A stretch of 50,552 bases of DNA from Allorhodopirellula solitaria (GTDB lineage Bacteria; Planctomycetota; Planctomycetia; Pirellulales; Pirellulaceae): contig NZ_SJPK01000008.1 in the NCBI RefSeq assembly GCF_007859855.1, positions 123,723 to 174,274 of the forward strand. Reading direction: 5' to 3'. The position numbers and the translations under genes were made by a program. Every line of letters begins with the position of its first letter. Position 1 is the first letter of the stretch. The notes below the pieces were generated by a model. The model did no database searches. It saw only the letters and a program-made list of their open reading frames with translations, and had not been told where the DNA came from. Shown here in pieces: positions 2,551 to 49,774 of this stretch.

Positions 2551-4038
2551 GTGTTCACTCCATTTTGCTCAGGACAATCCAGCGGTAACTGCCGCTGGCT
2601 GGCGTCTTGGTGGTTATTGTTTCTCGTGCCCCTGGCGTTGGTTGGATGTTCGTCGGGTGACATTACTCTCGCCGATCTAGAAGCTGCGGTCGCCAACGTC
2701 GATGTGTCAAATATCGTGATCGATGAGTCCGATGTGGCTCCCGCCGCGATGCTGAATCTGGAAGCGAGTGATCTCAAGTTCGGGTTTATCAAGCTCACCG
2801 ATTGTGCACCGCTCGTCATTGCGAAAGAGAAGGGATTCTTCGACGACGAAGGGCTCAATGTCACGTTGGAGCCACAATCCAACTGGAAAATATTGCTCGA
2901 CAATGTGATCAACGGGCAGCTCGATGGTGCTCACATGTTGGCGGGGCAACCCATTGGCGCAACCATTGGGATTGGCACCCAGTCCCCGATCGTGACCGCC
3001 TATAGCATGGACTACAACGGCAACGCGATCACGGTCAGCAATGAGGTTTGGGCTCAGATGCAGGAGCATGATCCGAGTCTGGATAGCCCCACGCCGCCGC
3101 ATCCCATTTCGGCCGCCAGTCTCCAGCCCATCGTGGCCGAGTATCTCGCCGAGCAGGGGCAGCCGTTCCCAATGGGGATGGTCTTTCCCGTGAGCACGCA
3201 CAACTATGAAATACGCTATTGGTTAGCAGCTGCGGGCATTCACCCCGGCATGTACACCGCAAGTGATTTGAACGGTTTCCAAGACGCACAGGTTCAACTT
3301 TCTACGGTCCCGCCTCCGCAAATGCCGCAGAACCTTGAGGCGGACATCGTCAAGGGATACTGCGTGGGCGAACCCTGGAACCAGAAAGCGGTCGCGACAG
3401 GCATCGGTGTCCCTGTGGTCACCAACAGCGAGATCTGGAAGAACAATCCTGAAAAGGTTTTTGGTGTCTCGAAATCATGGGCCGATCAGCATCCCAGTAC
3501 TCACCTGGCCGTGGTCAAGGCGCTGATCCGTGCTGGGAAATGGCTCGATGAGACCGACGATGCCGGGGTGCTCATCAACCGCCCGGAAGCCGCGAAGATC
3601 CTCAGTGGCAAGGACTATGTTGGGGCTGAAGAGGAGGTCATTTCCCAATCCATGGCGGGCACGTTCACGTTTCAGTCCACGGACGTCCGTGAGATGCCAG
3701 AGTTCAATGTGTTCTTCGCGGGCGGTGCCAGCTACCCACACTACAGCGATTGCGTTTGGTTCTTGACCCAGATGCGTCGATGGGGCCAGATCACCGAACC
3801 GAAGCCGGCGTCCTGGTATGACGACACAGCAAAAGAGATTTATCTGCCGCAGATCTACCGGCAAGCGGCGGAGTTGTTGGTCAGCGAGGGCAAGCTGGAA
3901 CCGAGCGAATTGCCGGGCCCTGACTACGACGGCTATCGATCCGCGACGCAAGATTTCATTGATGGCAAGACGTATGACGGTCGCGATCCAATTGGTTACA
4001 TCAACAGTTTCGAAATTGGCACGAAGGAAGAACTATGA
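2551..4038 (+). CDS. NrtA/CmpA-like ABC transporter substrate-binding lipoprotein
   Basis: This is the solute-binding component of a nitrate/bicarbonate-type (NrtA/CmpA/SsuA superfamily) importer. A GTG start gives a hydrophobic leader ([14 protein letters not shown]) followed by a lipobox LVGC with Cys33, so it should be a membrane-anchored lipoprotein. The mature part begins the ligand-binding fold at about residue 75 ([20 protein letters not shown]), with NrtA-like stretches [20 protein letters not shown] and [13 protein letters not shown]. At 495 aa its length is close to cyanobacterial NrtA. The stop overlaps the permease start (ATGA at 4035), so the two are translationally coupled. Substrate is inferred from the family; nitrate is likely, but cyanate, bicarbonate or a sulfonate cannot be excluded. 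Confidence 0.85.
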
Positions 4039-33398: not shown

Positions 33399-34352
33399 TC
33401 AATCAGTCAATTCGGCAGCGGTGACCGCATCATCGCCTCGCACCAATTCGGCCTGTTCTTGCCGCGCCGCTTCGAGGATCGGTCCCAAGTACTGATGCAA
33501 GGGATGGTCGGAAAAATGATCGATGCGAAATCGCCGCAAGCTCTTCAGGAATCCACGCCAGCGATCGTGACGTTTCTTGATCGCGTTGAGGTGACCCAGG
33601 TTGCCGTCGCGATCAATGTAAACTTCCGTACCGCAATGGCGGTACCCCATCCATGCCGGCGGGGTGCGAGTGACGATGTCGTTGTTGTTGACAAACCGAT
33701 AGTGATCGAGCTGGACGAAGTTAATGTAGCGTTTATCGCCCACCCGAGGGCTGCCGTAGGTGAACAGAGCACTCGGCACGCTCTTGATATGCGACAAAAA
33801 GCAACGTCCAGCACAGATCGTCGCCATCGCCCCGCCGAGAGAGTGCCCGCTAAACCACACCGGTTGCTCATTGCCCATCAACGCCGTCTCCAACATCGGC
33901 CACAAATCGTCGACCTCCGTTTTGAAGCCGCGATGCACCTTTCCCGCCGTCTCCGCCAAGACCGCTGCGGCATTGGCATCGGCACGAATATCGTTCCACT
34001 CATTCGGTTCGGTGCCCCGGCAAGCGATCACGCAGTCGTGGTCGTTGCGAAACCGATACGCCTGAGAACCATCGTGCTCAAAGAACGTCACGTCGGGGAA
34101 ACCCACAAACCGGGCCGCTTCGCTGGCTTCCCGCTCGTCGTTATAGGCGATCATCGCCAATTCGGCGAATAGCAGCGATCGCTGCAGAAACGTCATCTCT
34201 GCGATCGGCCCGCGAGCACGACTGTAAACGACGACCGGGACTTCGTTCTTGTCATGAACGATACCCGATGGCTCCTGCAGATCCCCGACCGGACTCTGCT
34301 GGGGAAGCGTTCCCTGCGGCTGAGCGGTTAACTGTGACTCTGAATCGATCAT
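33399..34352 (-). CDS. class 3 lipase family protein
   Basis: This alpha/beta-hydrolase of 317 aa resembles fungal-type (class 3) lipases. It has the oxyanion-hole region [15 protein letters not shown], the nucleophile elbow [13 protein letters not shown] with Ser171, [12 protein letters not shown] and the [13 protein letters not shown] segment with the likely catalytic Asp; a C-terminal His is available near [10 protein letters not shown]. No signal peptide is seen, so it is probably intracellular. The ATG at 34352 has an excellent Shine-Dalgarno (AGGAGG, eight bases upstream); an in-frame ATG at 34394 is less likely. Confidence 0.87.
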
Positions 34353-34453
34353 GGGACGTTCCTCCTGAGTGAATGCGGATACCGTGTCTCTCATTGTGCC
34401 ATACCCGCGCCGCCAGCGGGACGGGCGGCACTCAGAACCGCCCGCGGCGACTC

Positions 34454-34663
34454 TCAGCCCCACATCCCGACCAAGATCGGAGCGACGACCAGGATCATGG
34501 TTTGGATCGCCATGATGAACCAATACGGCCCCGGCCTCGTCCGCCGATCGACCAACACCTGATCCCCCGAGATCCCCGCCACCGCAAACCCACTCCAAAG
34601 CTGGAGCAGGTACGTCAAAACGAAAACCGCCGGAAGAATATAAAACGCAACAAACTCAGCCAT
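34454..34663 (-). CDS. small two-segment membrane protein
   Basis: This 69-aa protein has two hydrophobic helices (VAFYILPAVFVLTYLLQLW and WFIMAIQTMILVVAPILVG) joined by a polar loop VDRRTRPGP. Composition and length look like a genuine protein. It lies 101 bp upstream of the lipase gene on the same strand. No function can be given. Confidence 0.6.
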   Translation of the reverse strand: MAEFVAFYILPAVFVLTYLLQLWSGFAVAGISGDQVLVDRRTRPGPYWFIMAIQTMILVVAPILVGMWG

Positions 34664-34924
34664 CAGCTACCCATCACCCCGACAAAAAGGAACCCACCCA
34701 ATCGCCAAACATCCTACCGGAAGCACCGGTGATCAACATGGACCCCGCGGCCACCTGTCAGCTACCGGTGATTGGTTCGAGTCGGTCTTCGTAGATCATG
34801 GCGAGTTTTTGACGCAGAGACGCAAGGACGCAGAGACGCAAAGAATGTTCTGACCAATCAAAAATATCTGGCGCCTTCGCGTTTCCTTCGCTGATGGTTC
34901 TTGACCGAATTGAGTGGCACGTTA

Positions 34925-35180
34925 GCTCAATGAGGCCACGAGTTGGAACTCGTGGAAGGGCTACGCAAGGAAGGCCGAGGACGAGACGTGAAGGTGCTTC
35001 AATGAGGCCACGAGATGGAACTCGTGGAAGGCTGCCGGGGCTGATGGGTGTCTATCGTCCGATGATGATTGGCTTCAATGAGGCGACGAGATGGAACTCG
35101 TGGAAGGCGAACGGCTGGCCCGAGTGGGTAATGGAATCCCGCGAGCTTCAATGAGGCCACGAGATGGAACTCGTGGAAAG
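34925..35180 (-). repeat. degenerate trailer end of the CRISPR array
   Basis: The first repeat (34925-34959) lacks one T (GCTCAATGAGG). Repeats at 34996, 35072 and 35145 all carry GAGATGG instead of GAGTTGG; the second of these also has GAGGCGACG, and the last ends in GGAAAG. These are the oldest, leader-distal units. Confidence 0.9.
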
Positions 35181-38100
35181 TTCGAGCTGCCCCGCGACAG
35201 GTTCCTGCCTGGGATGCTGCTTCAATGAGGCCACGAGTTGGAACTCGTGGAAGGGAGGCCACCGCCCTGTCGGTTCGCCTGGCTCATCGTCGCGCTTCAA
35301 TGAGGCCACGAGTTGGAACTCGTGGAAGGCGCGATGACAGGTCCAAGCAAATCAAGACGGCACTTGCTTCAATGAGGCCACGAGTTGGAACTCGTGGAAG
35401 GGACGATTGTTTCGCCCGTATTGCTGAACTCACACCGGCTTCAATGAGGCCACGAGTTGGAACTCGTGGAAGGCCTCCATCGAATCAAGTTGATGGCGGC
35501 CGTGCTCCTCGCTTCAATGAGGCCACGAGTTGGAACTCGTGGAAGGAGAGTCGTCCCGATGAAAGTCATGATTCTCCGACTCTCTGGCTTCAATGAGGCC
35601 ACGAGTTGGAACTCGTGGAAGGCTCTCGATCATGCGGGCGTCTACGGCGACGATTCGGCTTCAATGAGGCCACGAGTTGGAACTCGTGGAAGGACCTCGG
35701 GCCATTTCGATACCTCGCACGACGCCTTGCTTCAATGAGGCCACGAGTTGGAACTCGTGGAAGGCGCAACGGGAGACACTGGCCCGCAAGGAATCCAAGG
35801 CGCTTCAATGAGGCCACGAGTTGGAACTCGTGGAAGGTATCACGGTTTATTTCAACAATAATAAATCGTGTGGTCGCTTCAATGAGGCCACGAGTTGGAA
35901 CTCGTGGAAGGTATATGCTGGGTTGGCCGCAAGGGATCCGGAGGGACTAAGCTTCAATGAGGCCACGAGTTGGAACTCGTGGAAGGGAAAAACCGGCGGA
36001 CGGAAGAAAGGCACTCCGAACAGCTTCAATGAGGCCACGAGTTGGAACTCGTGGAAGGTGCCACCAAATCGACATCCTGCCAGTCGTCGTCTCCAGCTTC
36101 AATGAGGCCACGAGTTGGAACTCGTGGAAGGCGGCGATTACACGATTTACGACATCGACATGCCGCCGGCTTCAATGAGGCCACGAGTTGGAACTCGTGG
36201 AAGGGTGAAGCAAGAAGTTTAGAAGCTGGACAGGCAACTACTGCTTCAATGAGGCCACGAGTTGGAACTCGTGGAAGGTCCGACGAACGCAACGACCGCC
36301 GGGTTCCCGTTCACTTGCTTCAATGAGGCCACGAGTTGGAACTCGTGGAAGGACGGCGAGCCAATGTATCGCCACAACGAAATTTATTCTGCTTCAATGA
36401 GGCCACGAGTTGGAACTCGTGGAAGGGACAGAGGCAGGGATCAAGGTCTATGTCGATGGGTCGGCTTCAATGAGGCCACGAGTTGGAACTCGTGGAAGGG
36501 GCCAAGGATAGCCAGTAGCTTTTGTTTGCTTGCCTGCTGCTTCAATGAGGCCACGAGTTGGAACTCGTGGAAGGAGCAACTACACAGTAGAAGATCTCGA
36601 TCAGTTCAACGGCTTCAATGAGGCCACGAGTTGGAACTCGTGGAAGGATCCTGCATCGGTGGTCGTCGTACTTTCTGGGTCATCTGGCTTCAATGAGGCC
36701 ACGAGTTGGAACTCGTGGAAGGGCCCGCGGGCGACAACAAACCGACCGAAACCGAAATCGCTTCAATGAGGCCACGAGTTGGAACTCGTGGAAGGTGCCG
36801 AAGTATTTGGGCGACGTTGAGGCCAAGTAGAACGGCTTCAATGAGGCCACGAGTTGGAACTCGTGGAAGGGGAGCTGGCGAAGATGGCAGCCCAGCAAGA
36901 GGCGAGCGCTTCAATGAGGCCACGAGTTGGAACTCGTGGAAGGATTACGACCGAACCGACACCGGCCGAAGTAATCGCTGAGCTTCAATGAGGCCACGAG
37001 TTGGAACTCGTGGAAGGAGTTTCGCGGCGATACATCCAGTGGCGGCAACATGGGCTTCAATGAGGCCACGAGTTGGAACTCGTGGAAGGCTTGCCCAACG
37101 GTGAATGAATGATGACCCCTCCACGCTTCAATGAGGCCACGAGTTGGAACTCGTGGAAGGCGTCCCATCGATCGCAATCGACCAGGCGGCAGCGTAGGCT
37201 TCAATGAGGCCACGAGTTGGAACTCGTGGAAGGAAGTGCGGATCAAATGAATCACGCGGAGTCATTCGCGGCTTCAATGAGGCCACGAGTTGGAACTCGT
37301 GGAAGGACAGAAAAGCTCCTATACGTCGATGCTGTCCAGGAAGCGCTTCAATGAGGCCACGAGTTGGAACTCGTGGAAGGTCGCCATCCTCTCCGGCAGC
37401 GTATCCCTCGTGGTAGGCTTCAATGAGGCCACGAGTTGGAACTCGTGGAAGGTAAGATGGCTGAGGAATTGAAGCCTGACAAGGATTCGGCTTCAATGAG
37501 GCCACGAGTTGGAACTCGTGGAAGGCCAAACTACTTGGCATCACCTACGAAGAACTCACCGCTTCAATGAGGCCACGAGTTGGAACTCGTGGAAGGGACA
37601 TAAAAAGACGAGTAACCACCAAACACGTTGTAGAGCTTCAATGAGGCCACGAGTTGGAACTCGTGGAAGGCGATTCACTCAGAACCCCTCTGGAGAAATT
37701 CAACGATGCTTCAATGAGGCCACGAGTTGGAACTCGTGGAAGGACGGAGATTGCGGAAACTGAAGCAGGCCCCGAACCGCTGCTTCAATGAGGCCACGAG
37801 TTGGAACTCGTGGAAGGCAAGCCGCCGTGGATTTCATTCGGCAATTCGACCTGGCTTCAATGAGGCCACGAGTTGGAACTCGTGGAAGGTGCGTGATGGC
37901 ACCGCGTTGTTCCATGCCGATCACGCGCTTCAATGAGGCCACGAGTTGGAACTCGTGGAAGGGGCGTCGTAAGTGCGACCCATTAACGGGCCAAACGCTC
38001 GCTTCAATGAGGCCACGAGTTGGAACTCGTGGAAGGGGATTGAGCATGGTCGCGAGTGGACAGAAAAGAGCGATGCTTCAATGAGGCCACGAGTTGGAAC

Positions 38101-39204
38101 TCGTGGAAGGCAATTGTGACACCGCCTGATCCTACCTCGATATCTGAGCTTCAATGAGGCCACGAGTTGGAACTCGTGGAAGGTGGCATTATCCCATCAG
38201 ACAGATGAGGATAAATTGCTAGCTTCAATGAGGCCACGAGTTGGAACTCGTGGAAGGGAACACTTTTTGTTTCTCTTATAGGAGGGTATGAAAAGCTTCA
38301 ATGAGGCCACGAGTTGGAACTCGTGGAAGGGCTGTTGAACGGGCTTACTTAAATGTCAGTAAAGCAAGCTTCAATGAGGCCACGAGTTGGAACTCGTGGA
38401 AGGGTGGCGGCTCGGCACCAAAAACAAGTGTCTACAATCAGCTTCAATGAGGCCACGAGTTGGAACTCGTGGAAGGCACAGAGCGTGGAATTAAAAGAAT
38501 CCATCCCACACGCTTCAATGAGGCCACGAGTTGGAACTCGTGGAAGGAGATCAGCCGCGACAGCATCACCTCACGCGGAATCGCTTCAATGAGGCCACGA
38601 GTTGGAACTCGTGGAAGGTGACGCGATGAACGTTGCAGCCAAGCAAGACAGCAGCGCTTCAATGAGGCCACGAGTTGGAACTCGTGGAAGGTCTCGCGAT
38701 TGGCCAGTGCGATCCTGGTAGATGTCAACGCTTCAATGAGGCCACGAGTTGGAACTCGTGGAAGGGGGACGCCTCGGCGGGAAACGCCCATCGGCGGGAA
38801 CGCTTCAATGAGGCCACGAGTTGGAACTCGTGGAAGGAGTCGCTGATTTTCGCATCGGCGGCTTGCTCCATCATGGCTTCAATGAGGCCACGAGTTGGAA
38901 CTCGTGGAAGGAGGATGCTCGGACGGCGTTGAGCGTCTACAGCGAGGCGGCTTCAATGAGGCCACGAGTTGGAACTCGTGGAAGGATTCGAGACGTTCAA
39001 CACGATCACGCTCGCTCTCGAGCTTCAATGAGGCCACGAGTTGGAACTCGTGGAAGGAGGCCGATCGGTGCGGGCACCGTCCCAGCGACGTTGGATTGCT
39101 TCAATGAGGCCACGAGTTGGAACTCGTGGAAGGGTTAAAGCACCAACCTCATCAGAATCAATGATAGCGCTTCAATGAGGCCACGAGTTGGAACTCGTGG
39201 AAGG
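34925..39204 (-). CRISPR. type I-G CRISPR array, 59 repeats and 58 spacers
   Basis: I count 59 repeats of 36 bp and 58 spacers of about 35-40 bp (mean period about 73 bp). On the plus strand the repeat begins GCTTCAATGAGG, continues with the palindrome CCACGAGTTGGAACTCGTGG and ends AAGG. On the minus strand it therefore ends in ATTGAAGC, the usual 3' end of type I repeats (8-nt crRNA handle). Together with degenerate repeats at the low-coordinate end and cas4-cas1 beside the high-coordinate end, this puts the leader at 39205 and transcription on the minus strand. The repeats from 35219 to 39204 look identical. I noticed no duplicated spacers or matches to the rest of the window. Confidence 0.98.
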
Positions 39205-39377
39205 AGCACCCATTTCTGGATGCGGGATTATGGGGGATTTTGCTGCGGTTTGCGAGCGGTCCACCAGTTGAGCGTTTCTGTTCACGTGGATGTTTCCCTG
39301 GAGGTGATGTAAATACGGTGTTTTTCCTGGTTGCGAGCGGTGGCCGGGAATTGCTCACCACCTCGCTGCTCGCGTCA
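39205..39377 (-). promoter_or_regulatory. CRISPR leader
   Basis: This 173-bp non-coding stretch joins the newest repeat to the cas4-cas1 stop codon. It has A/T-rich runs and contains the 11-mer TTGCGAGCGGT twice (39250-39260 and 39331-39341), 81 bp apart. It should hold the pre-crRNA promoter and the integration signals; no promoter box is assigned. Confidence 0.7.
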
Positions 39378-41315
39378 CTACCGCGTCTGAAAAACCGGGA
39401 AATCCTCGATCTCTCCGCTGAGGCGGCGAGCTAACAATCGAGTTTGAATCTCGAGCAAACGCCTGTAACTGACTCGGTAATCGAATAGCGGATGAGTGAC
39501 CAGTGAATCCATCCGTTTCTCATACGCTAGCAGAAAATGCTTGCGCCCGGCATCGCTCATCACGACCGATTTTCCCGCACAGATGAAGTGAGCCGGTGTG
39601 ACCATCTTGGTGTTGATCGCCGACAGGACGACCGAGTCAGCAATCAGGGGGCGGAACGGTTCCATCAGGTCGAGTGCCAGAGCTGGTTTGCCGGGTTTGA
39701 CCTGATGGTAGAAACCCAGATGAGGATCCAGGCCTACGATCGTGGCCGCAACCAGACACTCTTTGGTCAACAGGCTGTAGGCGAGGGACAGCATCGCGTT
39801 GACAGGATCTCGCGGCGGGCGACGGTTGCGCGATTGGAAATGAAACGCGGGACGTTTTTCCGCTGCCGCGAATCCCGCACCTCCTGTCGATACACCGCAA
39901 TCGACTTTGAGCATTCCCGCAAAATCCTGGAAGTACACGCGGGCGGCGATTCCTTCGATCCCCAAGAGGGAAGCGAGCGAGTCGGCAGACATGGCACGAT
40001 TGGCGTAGCGTTTGAGTTCGCTCAGCGACTTGGCATCGGGCTCGCGATGGTTTCTCATCAACAGCGTTCGCTGGTTGCGTATCTTGCCATGCACCAAGGT
40101 GCGAGCAATGTCGAGACAGAACTCTCGGTCATCGGCCAAGCGAAACTGTTGGCGTCGGACGAGGATGTTCTTCACGCCCAGGCCACCGCTGACGCCATAG
40201 AAATACCCCTTCTGAGTGAAGTAACCGATCGGTAAGTCACGCCCAAGCGCCGTTTGAATGGCCTGGGTCGATAGCTGGATATTGCCAAACAGATTAATTT
40301 GATTGATGTCGTTGAAGCGAATTTCCTGGACTACTTTGCCTTCGACCTTGGCTTGCAGCAGGTCTCCCTTCTTGCCAATCCACATCCCTTGCGTATTGAA
40401 ATACACGGGTCGCCGCTCATCGCGAGCGGTAATCAAGGGCCGCACGGTTGGTGGCGTTTGCCGAGATTCGGCAAGCCGGCGAGTTTCGTCGGGCAAGCAG
40501 ATACCGACCAGGGAACAACGCGGGCACTTGGGGCTGGACACCAGCGGCGGCGGGATTTGCCCTGAAATGCGATGCTGGCGCGCAGTCGCGATCGCCTCGC
40601 GTGTCAGTTTCAGCAGTTCGTCGTCGATCGGAATCCGGACACGCTGCCGTGTTTCATTGAAATACAGCACGCCTTCATCGGATTGGTAGCCATTGTCTCT
40701 CAGTACCAATACCTGCAGAGCAATTTGCACACGTTCGGGATCCCAGGCCGCGAGGGTTCCGTCGGCCATCCGCTTGGGACGCCCGCGTTTGTAGTCGACC
40801 GGGATTACTGAGTTGCCAGTCGCTTCGGCGAGATCCAGCTTGGCGATCACGCCCAGCGAGTCACTGCTCAGGGTCACACTGCGGGCATGAATTGTTTTAG
40901 GAAGGTCCTCGTTCTCTTCCTCGGAATCCGACGCTTCGTCATCCGAATTTGGTTGAGCCGCATCCCCAGGATCATCGTCGCCGAAGAGGGTCGCTGGCTG
41001 CACGTGCTTTGACTTTCGCCGCTTCTTCGGCTTGGCAGGTTCCGGGGGCACGTCGGCGGGTTCTTCATCAGCACTCGGGATGAAAGACTCCGTCGCACAG
41101 GGCTCGGCAGGGGCCAATCCGCCTGTTCCGCTATCGACTCGGCGATGCACGATCCCGCCGTCGATCGTATCGATCGATTCGGCAAACTGCCCTTCGACAT
41201 GCATCAGATAAAAGAGACGCGGGCAGTACACGAGCTCGTTGATCATCCGAGCGGGAAGTAGATCCTCAGGATCACGGTCGGAGGTGGAAGCACTCGCGTC
41301 AGCGGGTCGGATCAT
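39378..41315 (-). CDS. cas4-cas1: fused CRISPR-associated exonuclease/integrase Cas4-Cas1
   Basis: This adaptation enzyme has 645 aa. The Cas4 half has a first cysteine in NELVYCPRLFYL (Cys31) and three more in KCPRCSLVGICLPDE (264, 267, 273) for the Fe-S cluster, plus nuclease motifs KLDLAEATG and IPVDYKRGRPK. Residues ~75-145 are a highly charged, probably disordered insertion (PKKRRKSKHVQ, SDSEEENEDLPK). The Cas1 half starts near VYFNTQGMWIG and keeps the metal ligands in LLGIEGIAARVYF (Glu454), GLDPHLGFYH (His537) and ALALDLMEPFRP. Cas4-Cas1 fusion is typical of type I-G. ATG 41315 is used; the frame extends to a TTG at 41339 next to a stop. Confidence 0.96.
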   Translation of the reverse strand: MIRPADASASTSDRDPEDLLPARMINELVYCPRLFYLMHVEGQFAESIDTIDGGIVHRRVDSGTGGLAPAEPCATESFIPSADEEPADVPPEPAKPKKRRKSKHVQPATLFGDDDPGDAAQPNSDDEASDSEEENEDLPKTIHARSVTLSSDSLGVIAKLDLAEATGNSVIPVDYKRGRPKRMADGTLAAWDPERVQIALQVLVLRDNGYQSDEGVLYFNETRQRVRIPIDDELLKLTREAIATARQHRISGQIPPPLVSSPKCPRCSLVGICLPDETRRLAESRQTPPTVRPLITARDERRPVYFNTQGMWIGKKGDLLQAKVEGKVVQEIRFNDINQINLFGNIQLSTQAIQTALGRDLPIGYFTQKGYFYGVSGGLGVKNILVRRQQFRLADDREFCLDIARTLVHGKIRNQRTLLMRNHREPDAKSLSELKRYANRAMSADSLASLLGIEGIAARVYFQDFAGMLKVDCGVSTGGAGFAAAEKRPAFHFQSRNRRPPRDPVNAMLSLAYSLLTKECLVAATIVGLDPHLGFYHQVKPGKPALALDLMEPFRPLIADSVVLSAINTKMVTPAHFICAGKSVVMSDAGRKHFLLAYEKRMDSLVTHPLFDYRVSYRRLLEIQTRLLARRLSGEIEDFPVFQTR

Positions 41316-41400
41316 GGCATCACACTGGGGCAGGGACAATCAATGGGTTGGAAAAAATGGAAAGCGAACAGCCAAGACACGCCCGGCAAAGCAAATAAAA

Positions 41401-42648
<1,248 letters not shown>

Positions 42649-45531
42649 ATGATATCGCTGCAAGAAATACTGGGCCTAAGTGAACCCAACGAGCCATTTC
42701 CGTGGCAGAATGCACTGTTGGACCGCTTAACAGGCAGAGTTGGTAACCGGTTGGTGCTCGATGTACCGACGGGGCTTGGCAAAACGAGCGTCATGGCCGC
42801 TTGGTTGGTCGCGTTGGCCAGCGGTGCAGACCTGCCGAGACGCCTTGTATACGTCGTTGACCGCCGCGCGGTCGTGGATCAGGCGACACGAGAAGCGGAA
42901 AGGCTTCGGGATTGGGTGTCGACGGATCGAGAGACCAGCCAGTTACTTGGGTTGCAGAGCGATGAGCGGTTACCTATCTCGACGCTTCGAGGCCAATTTG
43001 CAGACAACGGTCAGTGGCTTAGGAATCCCTCTATGCCAGCAATCGTTATCGGCACGGTCGACATGATTGGCTCGCGATTGCTGTTCCAAGGCTATGGAGT
43101 CTCACGCAAAATGCGTCCCTATCACGCTGGTTTTCTCGGTGCGGGTTCTCTGTTTATCATTGATGAAGCTCATCTGGTTCCGCCATTCGAGGCTCTCTTG
43201 GAACGCGTCGTCACTCCCAATGAGGTACTGCGCGGCGACCGCGCGAATGACCTACTCATACCTCAATCTGTTCTAATTTCGCTTTCAGCAACGGGACGTG
43301 GAGTATCGGAGAACGTGCTGCGGATTGACGACAAGGATCTTCAGCATCCAGTCGCAGGCAAACGTCTTCGAGCGATCAAGCGTCTGAGGTTGCTCAAACC
43401 AGAAAATGACAATGACGACTTAGTCGAGAGACTCGCGACGGAGGCTTGGAAGCTTTCCGGATTTGGGACAGTTGCGAAACGCATCATCGTTTTTTGCACC
43501 CGTCGGACCGATGCGATGAAAGTTGAGCAAGCCGTTGCCAAACTCGCCAAGGCCGACAAGAAACAAGGGATACCGGCGCGTAAGATATTTCAACAGTTAT
43601 TTGTTGGGTCACGTCGGGTTCGGGAACGACAAGAACTCGAAGCTTGGCTTGAGGCCCATGGTTTTCTTGCGGGTTCGAAGGCTGTCATTGATGCTCCCGC
43701 CTTCGTCTTTGCGACCAGCGCCGGGGAGGTTGGTGTTGATCTGGATGCTGATCATATGGTGGGCGATTTGGTCGCGTACGAGCGAATGGTGCAGCGTTTT
43801 GGCCGCGTCAATCGACGGGGCGAGGGAGAGGCGGAGGTGCATGTGCTATTGCAGCGAGATGTTCCCGACAAAAAAGAAGCCGACGCACTGAGTAAAGCCC
43901 AGGCGAAGGCTGAGCGTCAGCGTGGGGCAAAAGATCACGAAGTGGTAAGACAGTTCGAATTGGCCCCGAAGTATCGTGCAGCGATGGAAGCTCTGCCGCT
44001 CATTGAAGGCGAATCGGCAAGAGATGCGAGTCCCGAAGCGCTGCGTCAGTTGAAAATCAATGCAAACACGGATGATCGGCTTGCAAGCGTTCTGGCCGAT
44101 GCAACGACTCCCGCACCGTTGCGTCCCCAGTTGACTCGTCCAATTCTAGACTCGTGGTCGATGACATCACTGGAAAAACATTCGGCTCGACCGTTTGTGG
44201 CACCATGGCTACGTGGCTGGGTCGATGATGAACCTCAGACAACGGTTGTATGGCGTAAGTATTTGCCAACACTGTCGAGCGGATGCACCAATAAGCAAAT
44301 TGCGGATTTTTTTGAAGCCGCACCAATTCATTTGACAGAGAAGTTGGAGACGCGTAGCGACGAAGTCTTCAGATGGCTGCTCAAGCGAGTGGATGGGATC
44401 ACTAAGCTCAAAGAAAAACCAGCCAAGAGCACCAAGCCAGAGGAGTTGGCACGTCTTCCCAAGAATGACGATGTCGTCGCAATCTTGGTAGATCGAAAAG
44501 GTGACGTAGAAAGAAGACTGACGCTCGATGAGTTGCGATTTGATGGGGGAAAGTCGGTCCAGGATGAAAAGAAGCATTTTTCACGACAGCTTTCCAGTGG
44601 TACGCTGGTTGTCGACTCTCGGATCGGCGGTTTGTCTGGCGGGCTGCTCGATAACAAGGCGAGGATAACGGAACCGGCAGAGGCTGCGGATGCGACTGAT
44701 TCGAACCCGTGGATCCGTGTTGCAGAAGATGCTCAAAGCAACGACATCGAACCAATCCCCGCTTTTCGTATTGTCGATCAGTCGGCTGATGAGCTGAATG
44801 AACCGACGACCTCAAAGCAACAAGACCGCGTTTGGAGAGTTTGCTATCGATTGCCAGTCCAATCGAGTTACGAAGACGAGCCGTCGCGATTCCTCGTTAT
44901 CGAAAAGTATCGCCAAGCGGTTACAAATGAAGAGAGCCGCTCATCGATCGGTGTGCGGACGCTCGAAGACCATCTGGCGGATACCGAGCGAGAGGTTGCT
45001 AGGCTCGCAACAACTCTTGGCTTATCCCGCGAGCTGACTCTTGTTTTTCAAATAGCGGCTCGTAACCATGATCACGGCAAGAATTGCGATCGTTGGCAGA
45101 ATGCTTTTAGCGCACCTGAAGAGGGGCGACCGTACGCGAAAACACTCGGCCCGTTTCGCAACAGTTTGCTGGACGGCTACCGACACGAGTTCGGGTCACT
45201 GCCACTGGTAAAGAACGATCCCGATTTCAGTAGCCTTTGCGAAGACAGGCAAGATCTGACGTTGCATCTTGTCGCGGCACATCACGGTTTTGGTAGACCA
45301 ATCATTCGGACCGACGGATGCGAAGACGCACCGCCTTCCGCCCTTGCCGAACGCGTGCGTGACGTCGCCCTGCGATTCGCTCGGCTCCAGCAGCAATGGG
45401 GGCCGTGGGGATTAGCGTGGCTCGAATCGATTCTACGCGCAGCCGATCATCGAGCCTCCGCACTCGTCGATGAAAAAGAACCAACAAGCAAAGACATTAA
45501 CACCGAACACCCGGAGAGCATTCATGGCTGA
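42649..45531 (+). CDS. cas3: type I-G CRISPR-associated helicase/nuclease Cas3
   Basis: This interference nuclease-helicase has 960 aa. The SF2 helicase comes first: Walker A LDVPTGLGKTS (Lys45), the DEAH box LFIIDEAHLVPP (about residue 172), and conserved helicase motifs VFATSAGEVGVDLD and RMVQRFGRVNRRG. The HD nuclease is at the C-terminus: ARNHDHGKNCDRWQ (His807-Asp808) and LVAAHHGFGRP. Helicase-then-HD is the reverse of most type I Cas3 proteins and is characteristic of I-G (I-U). ATG 42649 starts at the conserved ISLQEILGL; the frame extends to 42589. The stop overlaps the csb3 start. Confidence 0.95.
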   Translation: MISLQEILGLSEPNEPFPWQNALLDRLTGRVGNRLVLDVPTGLGKTSVMAAWLVALASGADLPRRLVYVVDRRAVVDQATREAERLRDWVSTDRETSQLLGLQSDERLPISTLRGQFADNGQWLRNPSMPAIVIGTVDMIGSRLLFQGYGVSRKMRPYHAGFLGAGSLFIIDEAHLVPPFEALLERVVTPNEVLRGDRANDLLIPQSVLISLSATGRGVSENVLRIDDKDLQHPVAGKRLRAIKRLRLLKPENDNDDLVERLATEAWKLSGFGTVAKRIIVFCTRRTDAMKVEQAVAKLAKADKKQGIPARKIFQQLFVGSRRVRERQELEAWLEAHGFLAGSKAVIDAPAFVFATSAGEVGVDLDADHMVGDLVAYERMVQRFGRVNRRGEGEAEVHVLLQRDVPDKKEADALSKAQAKAERQRGAKDHEVVRQFELAPKYRAAMEALPLIEGESARDASPEALRQLKINANTDDRLASVLADATTPAPLRPQLTRPILDSWSMTSLEKHSARPFVAPWLRGWVDDEPQTTVVWRKYLPTLSSGCTNKQIADFFEAAPIHLTEKLETRSDEVFRWLLKRVDGITKLKEKPAKSTKPEELARLPKNDDVVAILVDRKGDVERRLTLDELRFDGGKSVQDEKKHFSRQLSSGTLVVDSRIGGLSGGLLDNKARITEPAEAADATDSNPWIRVAEDAQSNDIEPIPAFRIVDQSADELNEPTTSKQQDRVWRVCYRLPVQSSYEDEPSRFLVIEKYRQAVTNEESRSSIGVRTLEDHLADTEREVARLATTLGLSRELTLVFQIAARNHDHGKNCDRWQNAFSAPEEGRPYAKTLGPFRNSLLDGYRHEFGSLPLVKNDPDFSSLCEDRQDLTLHLVAAHHGFGRPIIRTDGCEDAPPSALAERVRDVALRFARLQQQWGPWGLAWLESILRAADHRASALVDEKEPTSKDINTEHPESIHG

Positions 45532-46435
45532 AGCTTCGATTCCCGTTGATTTGCTCAATCCGGGGCAGGTGTTTGCCTGCCTTGGTTTCCTAGAAGCGGC
45601 CGACATTTTGCTGGGAAACGCCCGCGGTGGCTTCGATTGGTCCGATGAGTCAGACGTTCGCTTTCGGCTCAGCGCTGATACCGTCGGAAATCCCTATGAG
45701 GTCGTGTTGTTGTTTCTACAACATGCGTCTGTGACATCGCGAAGTGCGAGAGTTCTCGGACTTGATACATCAGGCTGGGACATTGACACAGAACAGTATT
45801 CGACGGATACCCCGTTCCCATTCCCGCCGCCCGCAAGTCCAGCAACCTTGCCTGCGGTACTGGTTGTAGAGTCGTCGGCACAACACGAGTCAGCGACAAG
45901 GATTGAGATAGGACACTGGGGCGATAATCGCGCGGAAACCGGTCGAGACAACGTCAAGTTTTGGGCGGGAGCAGCTGGATATCCCGGTGCCGCGCTGGCT
46001 CGAGATGCACTCGATTTAGTTCGAGACGATATACCAGCCTCCATCAACGACCCGTTTGCGGCCTGGGCCGAGCAAAGCAGTAGCTTTCGATTGGATTGGC
46101 GACGCGACTATATACCGATCGACATCGGATTTTCGTTAAACGCACACAGCGGACCCCGTTTCAAGACGGTTGGTTATCCCATAGTTGAAGTTTTGGCGGC
46201 CATTGGATTGACCAATGCGCGGCCCGAGTTTCTCAATAAGCTCCTCTATCGATACGGAACACTTGGGGTCGGCTCTACTGCTGATCTATTCGATCCATTC
46301 TTTCTGCGGGCGTCGCTGGGTGCCCCAGAACTTCCCTTTCCACAGCGTACTTTCCGTATGAAACTCGGTTGGCCTGGAAAAGAAGGCCAGTCACGCTGTA
46401 TTACCACTGTCTATGAGGAAATCGAAAATGAGTGA
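45524..46435 (+). CDS. csb3: type I-G/I-U CRISPR-associated protein Csb3
   Basis: This protein of about 303 aa belongs to the effector module. The N-terminus SIPVDLLNPGQVFACLGFLE is what I recognise as Csb3-like; in I-U/I-G loci Csb3 occurs where others have Csx17 (Cas8g) and is thought to be a Cas8-like or large-subunit component. No catalytic motif is seen. ATG 45524 has GGAG upstream and overlaps the end of cas3; its own stop overlaps the csb1 start, so all three are translationally coupled. The family name is from memory of the motif; the role in the complex is inference. Confidence 0.8.
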   Translation: MAEASIPVDLLNPGQVFACLGFLEAADILLGNARGGFDWSDESDVRFRLSADTVGNPYEVVLLFLQHASVTSRSARVLGLDTSGWDIDTEQYSTDTPFPFPPPASPATLPAVLVVESSAQHESATRIEIGHWGDNRAETGRDNVKFWAGAAGYPGAALARDALDLVRDDIPASINDPFAAWAEQSSSFRLDWRRDYIPIDIGFSLNAHSGPRFKTVGYPIVEVLAAIGLTNARPEFLNKLLYRYGTLGVGSTADLFDPFFLRASLGAPELPFPQRTFRMKLGWPGKEGQSRCITTVYEEIENE

Positions 46436-47600
46436 CACTATGCCATTAACCATCGAATTGCTTAACCAATGGGCAACGGACCTAACCGGCCCCGTTGCCC
46501 TCAGCATGCGTCAGCGCCTGCTGTCCGTTGAAGGTGAAGACGGCGAGGACCAGATCGTCTATCCGCCCACATTTGCGGACGTCGGCTATAACATCGATAC
46601 GCTGGCCGATGGCACTCGGGTGGCCCTGATTGACAGTGTTGGATCACAAGCCAACCGATTGGAGCCTGCATTCCAGTCAGAATCAGGCCACGCATTGTCC
46701 GGTTTCGTGCCACAGATTGATATTGTGCTACGGACGGAACCTTGCGGCAAATGCGATGCTTGCGAGCAGGCGAAGAAGCCGACCACTGGCAAGTGCGAGA
46801 ACCCGTGGAAAGAGAAACGCTCGCTGTTTGAGCTTGCACACCGGGCAGCTGACGCAGTTGTCCAATCTTCACCCACCTTGCTGCCAACGGTTCAGGAAGC
46901 ATTCGAGGATCTTCGTAAGACAGGCAACGCGATGCCCCTGGCGTCCGTCGCGCCGACTTCACTGGTCTTTGGATGCTGGGACTCACGTGGCGGATCGGGA
47001 GAGAAACTACCCCGCCTAGTCCGCAGCATTATTCGCGCCTGGGACGTGGACCCACTAACCACTGCATCGCAATTCAATTCGATCTGGAAGGCTCTCGACG
47101 AAGACCAACGCGAGGCGTTGAAAAAGGCCCTTCCCAAGGGCAAAAAGCTGTCAGAAAAAGGTTTCAATGATGCACCAGCCAAAGGACTCGGCGGAATCGT
47201 CGTTCGCGGCAACATCGAACGACACGTCACGATTAACCTGGTCGCGTTGCGTGGACTCGTTGGAGCAGACGACGCCGAAACTGAAACACTACGCAAGTAC
47301 CTGCTCGCGCTTTCGTTATTAACCGCGACGACGGACATTGATATGTTTCTTCGCGAAGGCTGCAACCTACGAATCGCCGACGAACAGGACGATTGGAAGG
47401 TCGTGCCACGACGTGGGGATAAGAAGTCTGTCGATCTTAACAGCGAAGAAGCTGCCGAATTGCTCAAGAACTACGCAGAGTCTGCATACAAACCACTCGG
47501 AAAGGCCTGGGTAAAACTCGATCTGAAGTCCGAGCATGACTTCGACATGAAGGCCGCCAAGGAATTGCTCGGCAAGACGACTGAAGAGGAAGCGGAGTAG
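46428..47600 (+). CDS. csb1: type I-G Cas7 (Csb1, GSU0053 family)
   Basis: This Cas7-type backbone subunit of the crRNA complex has 390 aa. Family features are FELAHRAADAVVQSSPTLL, PLASVAPTSLVFGCWDSRGG and PRLVRSIIRAWDVDP. An unusual cysteine cluster, CGKCDACEQAKKPTTGKC (Cys106, 109, 112, 123), looks like a small zinc-binding knuckle in a surface loop. ATG 46428 is used because GAGGAA lies about eight bases upstream and it overlaps the csb3 stop; the frame opens at 46413. It is followed two bases later by csb2. Confidence 0.93.
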   Translation: MSDTMPLTIELLNQWATDLTGPVALSMRQRLLSVEGEDGEDQIVYPPTFADVGYNIDTLADGTRVALIDSVGSQANRLEPAFQSESGHALSGFVPQIDIVLRTEPCGKCDACEQAKKPTTGKCENPWKEKRSLFELAHRAADAVVQSSPTLLPTVQEAFEDLRKTGNAMPLASVAPTSLVFGCWDSRGGSGEKLPRLVRSIIRAWDVDPLTTASQFNSIWKALDEDQREALKKALPKGKKLSEKGFNDAPAKGLGGIVVRGNIERHVTINLVALRGLVGADDAETETLRKYLLALSLLTATTDIDMFLREGCNLRIADEQDDWKVVPRRGDKKSVDLNSEEAAELLKNYAESAYKPLGKAWVKLDLKSEHDFDMKAAKELLGKTTEEEAE

Positions 47601-47602
47601 CC

Positions 47603-49774
47603 ATGAGCAACGCACTGGTCATTTCCGTTCGGCTGCATGAAGGTTGGTATCATGGCGCGGGTTCTACGCCATCGCCAGCCCGATTGTTTCAATCGCTGAT
47701 TGCCGGACGCGGTCTGTCGGGCCCGATTTCTGACGAATCGATTGAGGCACTCGAGTGGTTGGAGCGTCAGTCGCCGCCGATCATGGCCGCTCCGGTGACG
47801 CTTGGCGGCCAGCCCGTTACGAATTTCGTCCCCAATAACGATTTGGACGCCAAGCAAGGCGATCATCGCCGCATTGGCGAAATCCGAACGAAGAAATCGA
47901 CTCGACCACTGTTGTTCGATTGCGAAATTCCGTTCGTGTTCTGCTGGCATTTGAATGAGCAATCATCGCTTGATGATGCTCACGTCGAACAAATATGTGC
48001 TTTGGCCGATGGTGTCTTTCAGCTCGGTCGCGGGGTCGATACGGCATGGGCATGGGCCGAGTTACTCTCGACGGACGAGCTTGATGAACGTCTGCACTCG
48101 CATCGCGGACCTGTGCTGCGCCCATCATCGGGAAGCGGTAGCACAGAGTGTCCAACGTCTGGAACGGTTGCCAGCCTGATCCAGCGTCATGCTGATATGT
48201 CCAATCGCTACGCGATGACCGCAGACGGAAAGGGACAGACATTTCGTCGACGAGCCAAGCCAAAGTGGAGACTAGTATCGTATGACAATTCTGTGACGCG
48301 ACTCTCTTTTGACCTTACTGATCGTCAGACGTCAAATCTAGCGGTCTGGCCAGCCACGGAAGTTATCGAACTGGTCAAGACGATTCGCGATGCCGCAGTC
48401 GAGCGACTTATCAAGACGCTGCCAGATCAGCAAGCTGAGATCGGCCAAGCCTTAATTGGCCGCACGTCAAGCGGCGAGAATGCGGGACCAATTAAAGCGC
48501 GCGCTCGCATCATTGCACTACCATCGATCGGCCACGAACATGCCGACCAACAGATTCGTCGCGTCGTCATCGAGATTCCTGGCTATTGCCCCTTACTTGC
48601 CGATGACGTCGCCTGGGCATTCTCGGGCCAGATGCTCAGCCGCTACGGGCGCACGATCGATCTTATACGGTCGCAGCCGAACCGTCAGCTCGAACATTAT
48701 GGTGTTAACGTTGGAGGATCGAGAATGTGGCAAACCGTGACGCCGATCGCGCTGTCTGGGGCCGCTCGCCGCAGGCTTGAACCGGACCATCGCAAACGAG
48801 TTGCTCACGATAAAAAGGGCACTGCGGAGCGAAGGTTCGAGCAGGAAAACGCAGCGTCCGCACTCCGTCAGGCTCTACGTCACGCCAGCGTGCTCGCTAG
48901 ATTGACTCGCCTTCGCCTACAAAAAGAACCGTTCACCGCGCGTGGCCAGCGAGCAGATGATTTTGCCGCCGGAGATCGCTTTAGCAAACACACACTATGG
49001 CACGCGCAATTGGAATTTGAAAAACCGGTTAGTGGTCCTCTGTTGCTTGGTGATGGACGTTTTTTGGGGCTCGGCTTGCTCCAACCCACTGCGACTTCAT
49101 CGGGTGTGCTCGCGTTCACTATCGAGTCTGGATTGTCGAGCAAGCCGGATCCCGTCCGCTTGTCGCGATCGCTACGCAACGCCGTCATGGCGCGCGTTCG
49201 AGACGTATGCAAGACATCGGACCTGCCAGCCTATTTCAGCGGCCATTTGAAAACGGGCGATCCAGCAGACTCATCAAGACAGCCACACCTGACGTATACA
49301 TTCGATCCCGTGCGAAGTCGTTTGTTGGTTCTTCAACCTGAGATGCTTGACGCCTCGATCGGCCGATCGAACCGACATAGCAAGACGCTTGAACTCGCTT
49401 TGGCTCAGTTCGCTCACCTGCGCGCTGGACGTGACGGAAACCTGCGTCTCTACCCAACTGGCATCGACTTAGCGAGTGATCCACTCTTTTGTCGCTCGCC
49501 AGTCTGGGAGTCACTCACGCCCTACAGCGTCAACCGTCACGGTAAGAAGACAACAGCAGGAAATCTGATTAAACGCGATGTATTAGCCGAGTGTAGTCGC
49601 AGAGGAATACCGCAGCCTACCATTGCAATTAAGAATTGGACGGCAGTTTCCGGTTCCGGTCTTCAGTGTATGCTGCGTCTCGAATTCAAACAGGCGATTG
49701 CTGGCCCAATTATCCTCGGCAAGACTCGGCATCACGGAGGTGGCGTTTTCACTGCAAATAGAGTATCTGATTGA
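47603..49774 (+). CDS. csb2: type I-G Cas5-Cas6 fusion (Csb2, GSU0054 family)
   Basis: This 723-aa protein combines Cas5-like and Cas6-like RAMP folds, so it should cap the crRNA 5' end and process the pre-crRNA. The N-terminal RAMP fold has LVISVRLHEGWYHGAGSTP and SPARLFQSLIAG, diagnostic of Csb2. The C-terminal half has glycine-rich RAMP loops LLGDGRFLGLGLLQP and IILGKTRHHGGGVF. Its likely substrate is the 36-nt repeat with a 7-9-bp stem. It begins two bases after csb1 and ends the operon. It is longer than many Csb2 proteins (often about 450-600 aa by memory). Confidence 0.9.
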   Translation: MSNALVISVRLHEGWYHGAGSTPSPARLFQSLIAGRGLSGPISDESIEALEWLERQSPPIMAAPVTLGGQPVTNFVPNNDLDAKQGDHRRIGEIRTKKSTRPLLFDCEIPFVFCWHLNEQSSLDDAHVEQICALADGVFQLGRGVDTAWAWAELLSTDELDERLHSHRGPVLRPSSGSGSTECPTSGTVASLIQRHADMSNRYAMTADGKGQTFRRRAKPKWRLVSYDNSVTRLSFDLTDRQTSNLAVWPATEVIELVKTIRDAAVERLIKTLPDQQAEIGQALIGRTSSGENAGPIKARARIIALPSIGHEHADQQIRRVVIEIPGYCPLLADDVAWAFSGQMLSRYGRTIDLIRSQPNRQLEHYGVNVGGSRMWQTVTPIALSGAARRRLEPDHRKRVAHDKKGTAERRFEQENAASALRQALRHASVLARLTRLRLQKEPFTARGQRADDFAAGDRFSKHTLWHAQLEFEKPVSGPLLLGDGRFLGLGLLQPTATSSGVLAFTIESGLSSKPDPVRLSRSLRNAVMARVRDVCKTSDLPAYFSGHLKTGDPADSSRQPHLTYTFDPVRSRLLVLQPEMLDASIGRSNRHSKTLELALAQFAHLRAGRDGNLRLYPTGIDLASDPLFCRSPVWESLTPYSVNRHGKKTTAGNLIKRDVLAECSRRGIPQPTIAIKNWTAVSGSGLQCMLRLEFKQAIAGPIILGKTRHHGGGVFTANRVSD

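Follow-up and report, generated by a model that had tools for sequence, protein, structure and literature searches.

A csb3-type I-G CRISPR-Cas locus in Allorhodopirellula solitaria whose Csb2 carries two Cas6-like domains

Allorhodopirellula solitaria carries a CRISPR-Cas locus within a 50,552-nt stretch of contig NZ_SJPK01000008.1 (the window, in whose coordinates all features of this locus are given), part of a genome of 6.8 Mb in 62 contigs with a stated completeness of 99.92%. On the minus strand lie a cas4-cas1 fusion (Cas4g/Cas1g, 39378..41339; NF049935 717 bits, cut-off 560), which is the single cas1 match in the genome, and cas2 (41401..41691; TIGR01573 32.3 bits, cut-off 24.5; PF09827, 5.8e-18). 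On the plus strand follow cas3 (42589..45531; TIGR02621 Cas3g 582 bits, cut-off 400), csb3/cas8g2 (45524..46435, 303 aa; TIGR04106 Cas8g2/Csb3 210 bits, cut-off 125), csb1/cas7g, the backbone subunit (46413..47600; TIGR02570 105 bits, cut-off 38; PF09617, 3.3e-31), and a three-domain csb2 of 723 aa (47603..49774; TIGR02165 281 bits, cut-off 45). The Cas3 protein consists of a helicase followed by a C-terminal HD region at about residues 792-953, which TIGR01596 matches at 30.2 bits, below that model's own cut-off of 43.45. The plus-strand genes are tightly packed: csb3 starts 8 nt upstream of the end of cas3, csb1 and csb3 overlap, and csb2 begins 2 nt past csb1. The start of csb3 is more likely the ATG at 45524 than that at 45470, which gives a longer frame, because 15 of 17 aligned relatives begin at the former Met; the remaining two begin one residue later and ten residues earlier.

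Every gene thus scores above the cut-off of its curated model, and the gene list of the first-pass annotation (cas4-cas1, cas2, cas3, csb3, csb1 and csb2) is correct in both identity and place. Its assignment to type I-G is likewise right, as the csb1, csb2, Cas3g and Cas4g/Cas1g models all pass; the signature gene csb2, csb1/Cas7g, a Cas3 of the I-G kind, and cas4-cas1 with cas2 are all present. The same set, with csx17 absent, is found in csb3 type I-G systems of the Geobacter sulfurreducens and Bifidobacterium lactis kind, from which the locus differs, judged by matching Csb2 models of at most 552 positions, in the third domain of its Csb2. The divergently oriented cas2 and cas3 are separated by 0.9 kb, and this interval holds an inverted repeat at 42111-42173, whose 28-nt arms are 86% complementary. 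Outside the locus, a class 3 lipase gene (33399-34598) adjoins the array, and the stretch from 675 to 34598 also encodes MnmE, an NMT1-like protein, a sigma-54 response regulator with a histidine kinase, pyruvate phosphate dikinase, PNPase and an AAA ATPase.

The CRISPR array occupies 34924..39204 and comprises 59 repeats of 36 nt and 58 spacers, all different and 35-40 nt long. The count of 59 given in the first-pass annotation is exact, as both the repeat call and a genome-wide pattern search returned it; the latter, using 32 of the 36 repeat nucleotides with up to 3 mismatches, recovered the very same 59 repeats and, for the window's repeat, no further copies elsewhere in the genome. Four degenerate repeats lie at 34924-35180, at the array end opposite cas4-cas1, so that the leader is presumably at the other end, in the stretch that separates the array from the 3' end of cas4-cas1 (39205..39377), and the array would be read on the minus strand, like its leader. 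On this strand the repeat forms a hairpin of 8 bp, after which come CCUC and then AUUGAAGC (−11.8 kcal/mol, z −3.8 in folding). In the I-G system of Thioalkalivibrio, cleavage occurs 4 nt past the hairpin and leaves an 8-nt handle (PMC9638904); if this geometry is applied to the window's repeat, the handle would be AUUGAAGC. Myxobacterial I-G repeats are described as 36 bp long with a 3' end of TTGAAGC (PMC11237760), and the window's repeat, with 36 nt, the same -TTGAAGC end and a hairpin, conforms to this pattern.

Searches for the targets of the spacers yielded neither a protospacer nor a PAM. The 4281-bp array, compared with phages and plasmids, gave best matches of just E 0.3-0.4, and the 22-nt seeds of 6 of the 58 spacers, compared with viral contigs, were without match in five cases. 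The sixth, the seed of the leader-proximal spacer 1, is identical to positions 3911-3932 of viral contig L142, where the gene product reads AAIIDSDEA, but was rejected as a protospacer because the match ends after the 22 nt. Full-length spacers had no match in the window outside the array (up to 6 mismatches) and none in L142 (up to 8).

The presence of csb3 and the lack of csx17, both noted in the first-pass annotation, hold up. The large subunit Csx17 found no match in the genome, either with TIGR04113 or with a profile of 23 Csx17 sequences; TIGR04113 does match elsewhere in the phylum, where 11 of the 199 genomes scanned responded (10 above its cut-off), although its 14 control genomes stayed silent. 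The two findings that would have spoken against a csb3 system, a csx17 gene elsewhere in the genome or a Csb3 from an unrelated family, were thus not made, the latter in view of the TIGR04106 score of 210 bits against a cut-off of 125. The locus accordingly belongs to I-G2, marked by csb3/Cas8g2, rather than to I-G1, marked by csx17/Cas8g1. The description of the locus as a less-studied csb3 variant is sound as regards csb3, but overstates its novelty, as the variant is already catalogued and the curated model TIGR04106 itself carries the name 'Cas8g2'. The cas8u1 of the myxobacterial literature is presumably csb3. In PMC11237760, which also draws the I-G1/I-G2 division, cas8u1 is contrasted with csx17, and a table in PMC10333696 applies cas8u1 to what another program there names csx17. 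A variant with a deteriorated Cas8 is on record (PMC3150331), and in B. lactis a csb3-type system is reported to be in use as a working editor (PMC12915315).

The first-pass annotation also proposed that Csb3 or another subunit takes over the work of the large subunit, and for Csb3 this is likely, although the comparison of the Csb3 structure itself yielded a weak match to a Cascade chain only. The AlphaFold2 model of Csb3 (pLDDT 91.7) resembles chain 7tr6_C of a type I-A Cascade, probably Cas8a, at Foldseek E 0.037, with an rmsd of 5.9 and 9% identity, and the Csx17 structure (8b2x) is absent among the listed matches of the fold searches. A fold link to Cas8a has been published for the N-domain of Csx17 (PMC9638904), and the two observations may be set side by side as a parallel. 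Homology between Csb3 and the Csx17 N-terminus, considered on account of a similar-looking N-terminal motif, was rejected at an hhalign probability of 0.3 of 100 with Csb3 alignments of 18 and 74 sequences. In size, too, the two differ, as Csx17 has about 700-760 aa and a reported Cas11-like C-terminal part, in place of which the window has the small Csb3. A Cas11-like part inside Csb1 is not supported either, as Csb1 measures 341-421 aa (one of 548) in csb3 loci versus 312-392 aa in csx17 loci, and the usual length difference is too small. By sequence, no solved structures were found for the window's Csb1, Csb2 or Csb3.

The unusual part of the locus is Csb2. The first-pass annotation identified the gene correctly but overlooked an additional Cas6-like domain. 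A canonical Csb2 has two domains, Cas5 and Cas6, and about 500 aa, whereas the 723 aa of the window's protein hold a Cas5-like domain (residues 1-240, 47603..48322, plus strand), a first or middle Cas6-like domain (residues 241-498, 48323..49096, plus strand), the G-loop of which (GPLLLGDGRFLGLG) has no histidine, and a second or last Cas6-like domain of the csx17 type (residues 499-723, 49097..49771, plus strand) with the conserved His548, His562 and His710. This rests on profiles, hhalign and the fold of the last domain; in the fold search with full-length Csb2 the middle domain was barely covered. TIGR02165 has its best stretch at residues 4-495 and a second stretch without a reported position, and residues 240-497 match positions 256-491 of PADLOC model PDLC00995 at E 6e-38. 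When scanned alone, the middle and last parts match the same C-terminal half of PDLC00995 (256-491 and 258-490) and that of PDLC01778 (239-448 and 243-448). In hhalign the two align with each other at a probability of 97.7-98.0 of 100, and the Cas5-like part aligns with either at less than 1. The middle domain is similar to the C-terminal half of the short Csb2 of the csb3 type (hhalign E 1.5e-32), whereas the nearest relative found for the last domain is the Cas6 half of csx17-type Csb2. The hhalign comparison and the Csb2 structure model are based on an alignment of 47 rows that includes L109, and the counts in 46 rows given below leave it out. L109, a csx17 locus with a Csb2 of 725 aa, was dismissed as an exception because it matches the csx17-type model and lacks the middle domain. 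The known I-G system of T. sulfidiphilus shares Csb1/Cas7, Csb2, Cas3 and the arrangement of hairpin, 4 nt and 8-nt handle (PMC9638904), but Csb2 of the csx17 type has one Cas6 domain as opposed to two in the window, and Cas6b (PDB 4z7k), at 9% identity, is a stand-alone enzyme. In the literature searched, which did not extend to subscription papers, supplements and most preprints, no description of a three-domain Csb2 was found. The longest of the matching Csb2 models has 552 positions, and annotators should be aware that none of them can span all three domains.

To place this architecture, 72 csb3 loci, 17 further contexts and 15 more loci were collected, the 72 with search patterns taken from close relatives, which biases the sample to the window's clade. 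Within the family, 10 of 119 genomes have a csb3 match (9 above the cut-off), as do 13 of 343 in the phylum (12 above the cut-off), and none was found in the three other genomes of the genus that were sampled. This patchiness suggests that csb3 systems moved between lineages. Besides the window, the fused three-domain Csb2 occurs in 65 rows from 62 distinct contigs of several phyla (L112, L121 and L122 duplicate the contigs L031, L037 and L093); Csb2 proteins cut at a contig end (L053, L058, L083, L099 and others) were left out of both the fused and the split counts. Of the 87 rows in a Csb3 tree, 59 have a fused Csb2 (window included), 3 a split one and 14 a short one; the other 11 are unclassifiable, and 10 of these group with the fused. 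In this tree, the fused and split rows (clade B) are parted from the short ones (clade A) by a branch of 100/100 support, the bootstrap not being fully settled, so that the architecture of Csb2 tracks the Csb3 tree: 62 classifiable rows in clade B (59 fused and 3 split) versus 14 short ones in clade A. Clade A consists of 14 Csb2 proteins in 13 loci of Planctomycetota (L111 twice, L113-L116, L118-L120, L125, L127, L128, L130 and L131), with frames of 499-555 aa and a single Cas6 domain. These are csb3-type I-G modules as well, with matches to the cas3, csb3 and csb2 models, although their Csb3 is just 21-26% identical to the window's (six aligned). Two Cas6-like domains were seen in none of the 14 and in no complete Csb2 collected from a csx17 locus.

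A tree with 150 Cas6-like domains, built by a quick method with SH-aLRT support only and without L109, unites the middle domains (support 98), the last domains (99) and the clade-A domains (97) in one group apiece. Both trees omit L048 and L079, which are among the 62 contigs and whose Csb2 proteins are 98% and 91% identical to those of L047 and L073. Some of the collected loci have peculiarities of their own. The Csb2 frame of an Aquincola MAG (L080:7449-8282) runs on past the second Cas6-like domain into a Fic domain (PF02661, E 3e-10) and has Arg in place of the G-loop His of its last domain. The last domain of another Csb2 (L059:11831-14437) includes an internal repeat of about 130 aa, either a recent duplication or an assembly error, and a second csb3-like N-terminus, apparently a remnant, lies 5' of cas3 in L031 (1683-2198; = L112). 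Within clade A, L111 has two csb3 modules with one cas4-cas1 in between, and L131 combines a csb3 module with a short Csx17-like stretch and a csx17-type Csb2 that is cut at the contig end.

Three clade-B loci show the last domain as a separate gene. In L046, L094 and L096, Csb2 terminates with the middle domain. A downstream gene encodes a csx17-type Cas6 half in L046 (10744-11547, 268 aa) and in L096 (13588-14499, 304 aa, where the start codon and the csb2 stop share the sequence ATGA), and a whole csx17-type Csb2 in L094 (13726-15171, 482 aa). Among the collected loci, no complete clade-B Csb2 was without either a fused last domain or a downstream gene of the csx17 type. In the Csb3 tree L046 and L096 are sisters and L094 stands elsewhere, suggesting from the sequences that the separate genes arose at least two times. 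In the tree of 150 domains the three join the csx17-type domains (84), L046 with two of these at 95, L094 and L096 on long branches, and the fused last domain forms a group of its own. One contig, L085, has a csx17-type module (csx17 and Csb2) ahead of a csb3 module with a three-domain Csb2, an arrangement that could allow an exchange of Cas6 domains.

The two Cas6-like domains differ in their candidate catalytic residues. The G-loop His is present in none of the 65 middle domains, all of which have an aromatic residue there (64 by pattern, L051 by eye), as opposed to 56 of 65 last domains, or 57 of 66 with the window; the other nine (from 8 of the 62 contigs) have F, Y, M, R or L. With the window included, all 66 last domains have His548 and 64 have His562, the two exceptions being one contig (L037/L121), the last domain of which is also without the G-loop His. 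In the middle domain, His311 and His313 are partly kept (30 and 32 of 46), His467 is invariant in 46 rows, and Arg stands opposite His548 in 39 of 46, the correspondence being that of hhalign. A G-loop His is found in 8 of 8 Csb2 proteins of csx17 loci by pattern and in L108 by eye, L106 being cut at the contig end; it also occurs in the stand-alone genes of L046, L094 and, by eye, L096, and in 9 of 14 clade-A proteins (pattern matching gives 8 of 13, and inspection by eye adds L118). In Thioalkalivibrio, H503 in the C-terminal Cas6 domain of Csb2 is required for cutting and H503A is inactive (PMC9638904); judging from position and conservation, H503 would be equivalent to His710 in the G-loop of the window's protein. 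As nine last domains and 5 of the 14 clade-A proteins lack it, this His is no sure mark of activity. A division of labour with a silent middle domain and a catalytic last domain is predicted from these patterns as probable. Csb1 is also said to process pre-crRNA, according to a preprint cited in PMC12915315.

The main reading, given a probability of roughly two in three, is that of a type I-G csb3 system in which a degenerate middle Cas6 would be structural, the last Cas6 would cut, and Csb3 would be a reduced large subunit. If the locus is a working system, as we infer, Cas4-Cas1 and Cas2 would insert spacers beside the leader (39205-39377), and the array transcript would be cut 4 nt past the repeat hairpin to give the 8-nt handle AUUGAAGC, with the last Cas6-like domain of Csb2 presumably cutting and retaining the hairpin and the middle one kept as a structural part. 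Csb1 would coat the spacer and Csb2 cap the crRNA, Csb3 may read the PAM and hold Cas3, and Cas3 would destroy the target. The repeat, with its hairpin, 4 nt and 8-nt handle, fits the Thioalkalivibrio geometry and is counted in favor of this reading.

Alternatively, both Cas6-like domains may work, one cutting and the other holding the 3' hairpin, or each serving a different form of repeat. Both are recognizable in the 62 other contigs and each matches the model of its own kind well (245-373 bits for the middle domain, which is longer, and 182-296 for the last), but the aromatic residue that all 65 middle domains have at the G-loop His position, the Arg opposite His548 in 39 of 46, and the single repeat type in the genome (in a search that used the window's repeat only) make this unlikely. 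More doubtful is the notion that the middle domain is a structural subunit replacing the helical, Cas11-like part that Csb3 lacks. The Csb3 model indeed has no C-terminal helical bundle, such as the Cas11-like one reported for Csx17 (PMC9638904), and no additional small-subunit gene was seen among the ORFs of the operon; yet clade A pairs an equally small Csb3 with a two-domain Csb2, so that a missing Cas11-like part does not in itself demand an extra domain, and the RRM-type fold does not resemble a helical bundle.

That the locus is an ordinary, catalogued csb3 I-G system, its third domain a neutral fusion of no mechanistic meaning, would agree with the coverage of all genes by curated I-G models. 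It is improbable given that fusions of the third domain recur in 62 more contigs from several phyla, that the three clade-B loci without it obtain a csx17-type equivalent from a downstream gene, and that two Cas6-like domains occur in none of the collected Csb2 proteins of clade A (n = 14) and in no complete one from a csx17 locus. The chance that a csx17 from elsewhere works with the locus, leaving Csb3 an accessory, is close to negligible: L085 does have both types side by side, but no csx17 was found in a genome given as 99.92% complete, which has a single cas1.

Compared with the csb3 reading, which is sound yet known, the tandem Cas6 in Csb2 and its natural split forms are the new element. 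A tentative scenario, held at somewhat less than even odds, is that one csb3 lineage lost its own Cas6 catalysis and regained it through a csx17-type Cas6, which was acquired in an ancient fusion and later replaced, more than once, by separate genes nearby; the dead Cas6 would have persisted because it came to serve as a component of the effector. Among the type I subtypes, I-G has been described as the least well understood (PMC9638904). With an apparently silent and a likely working Cas6 in one Csb2, and the two separate in three loci, the roles of cutter and holder of the guide RNA become directly testable, and the same loci may be used to test how an effector with a small Csb3 forms without the helical tail of a large subunit.
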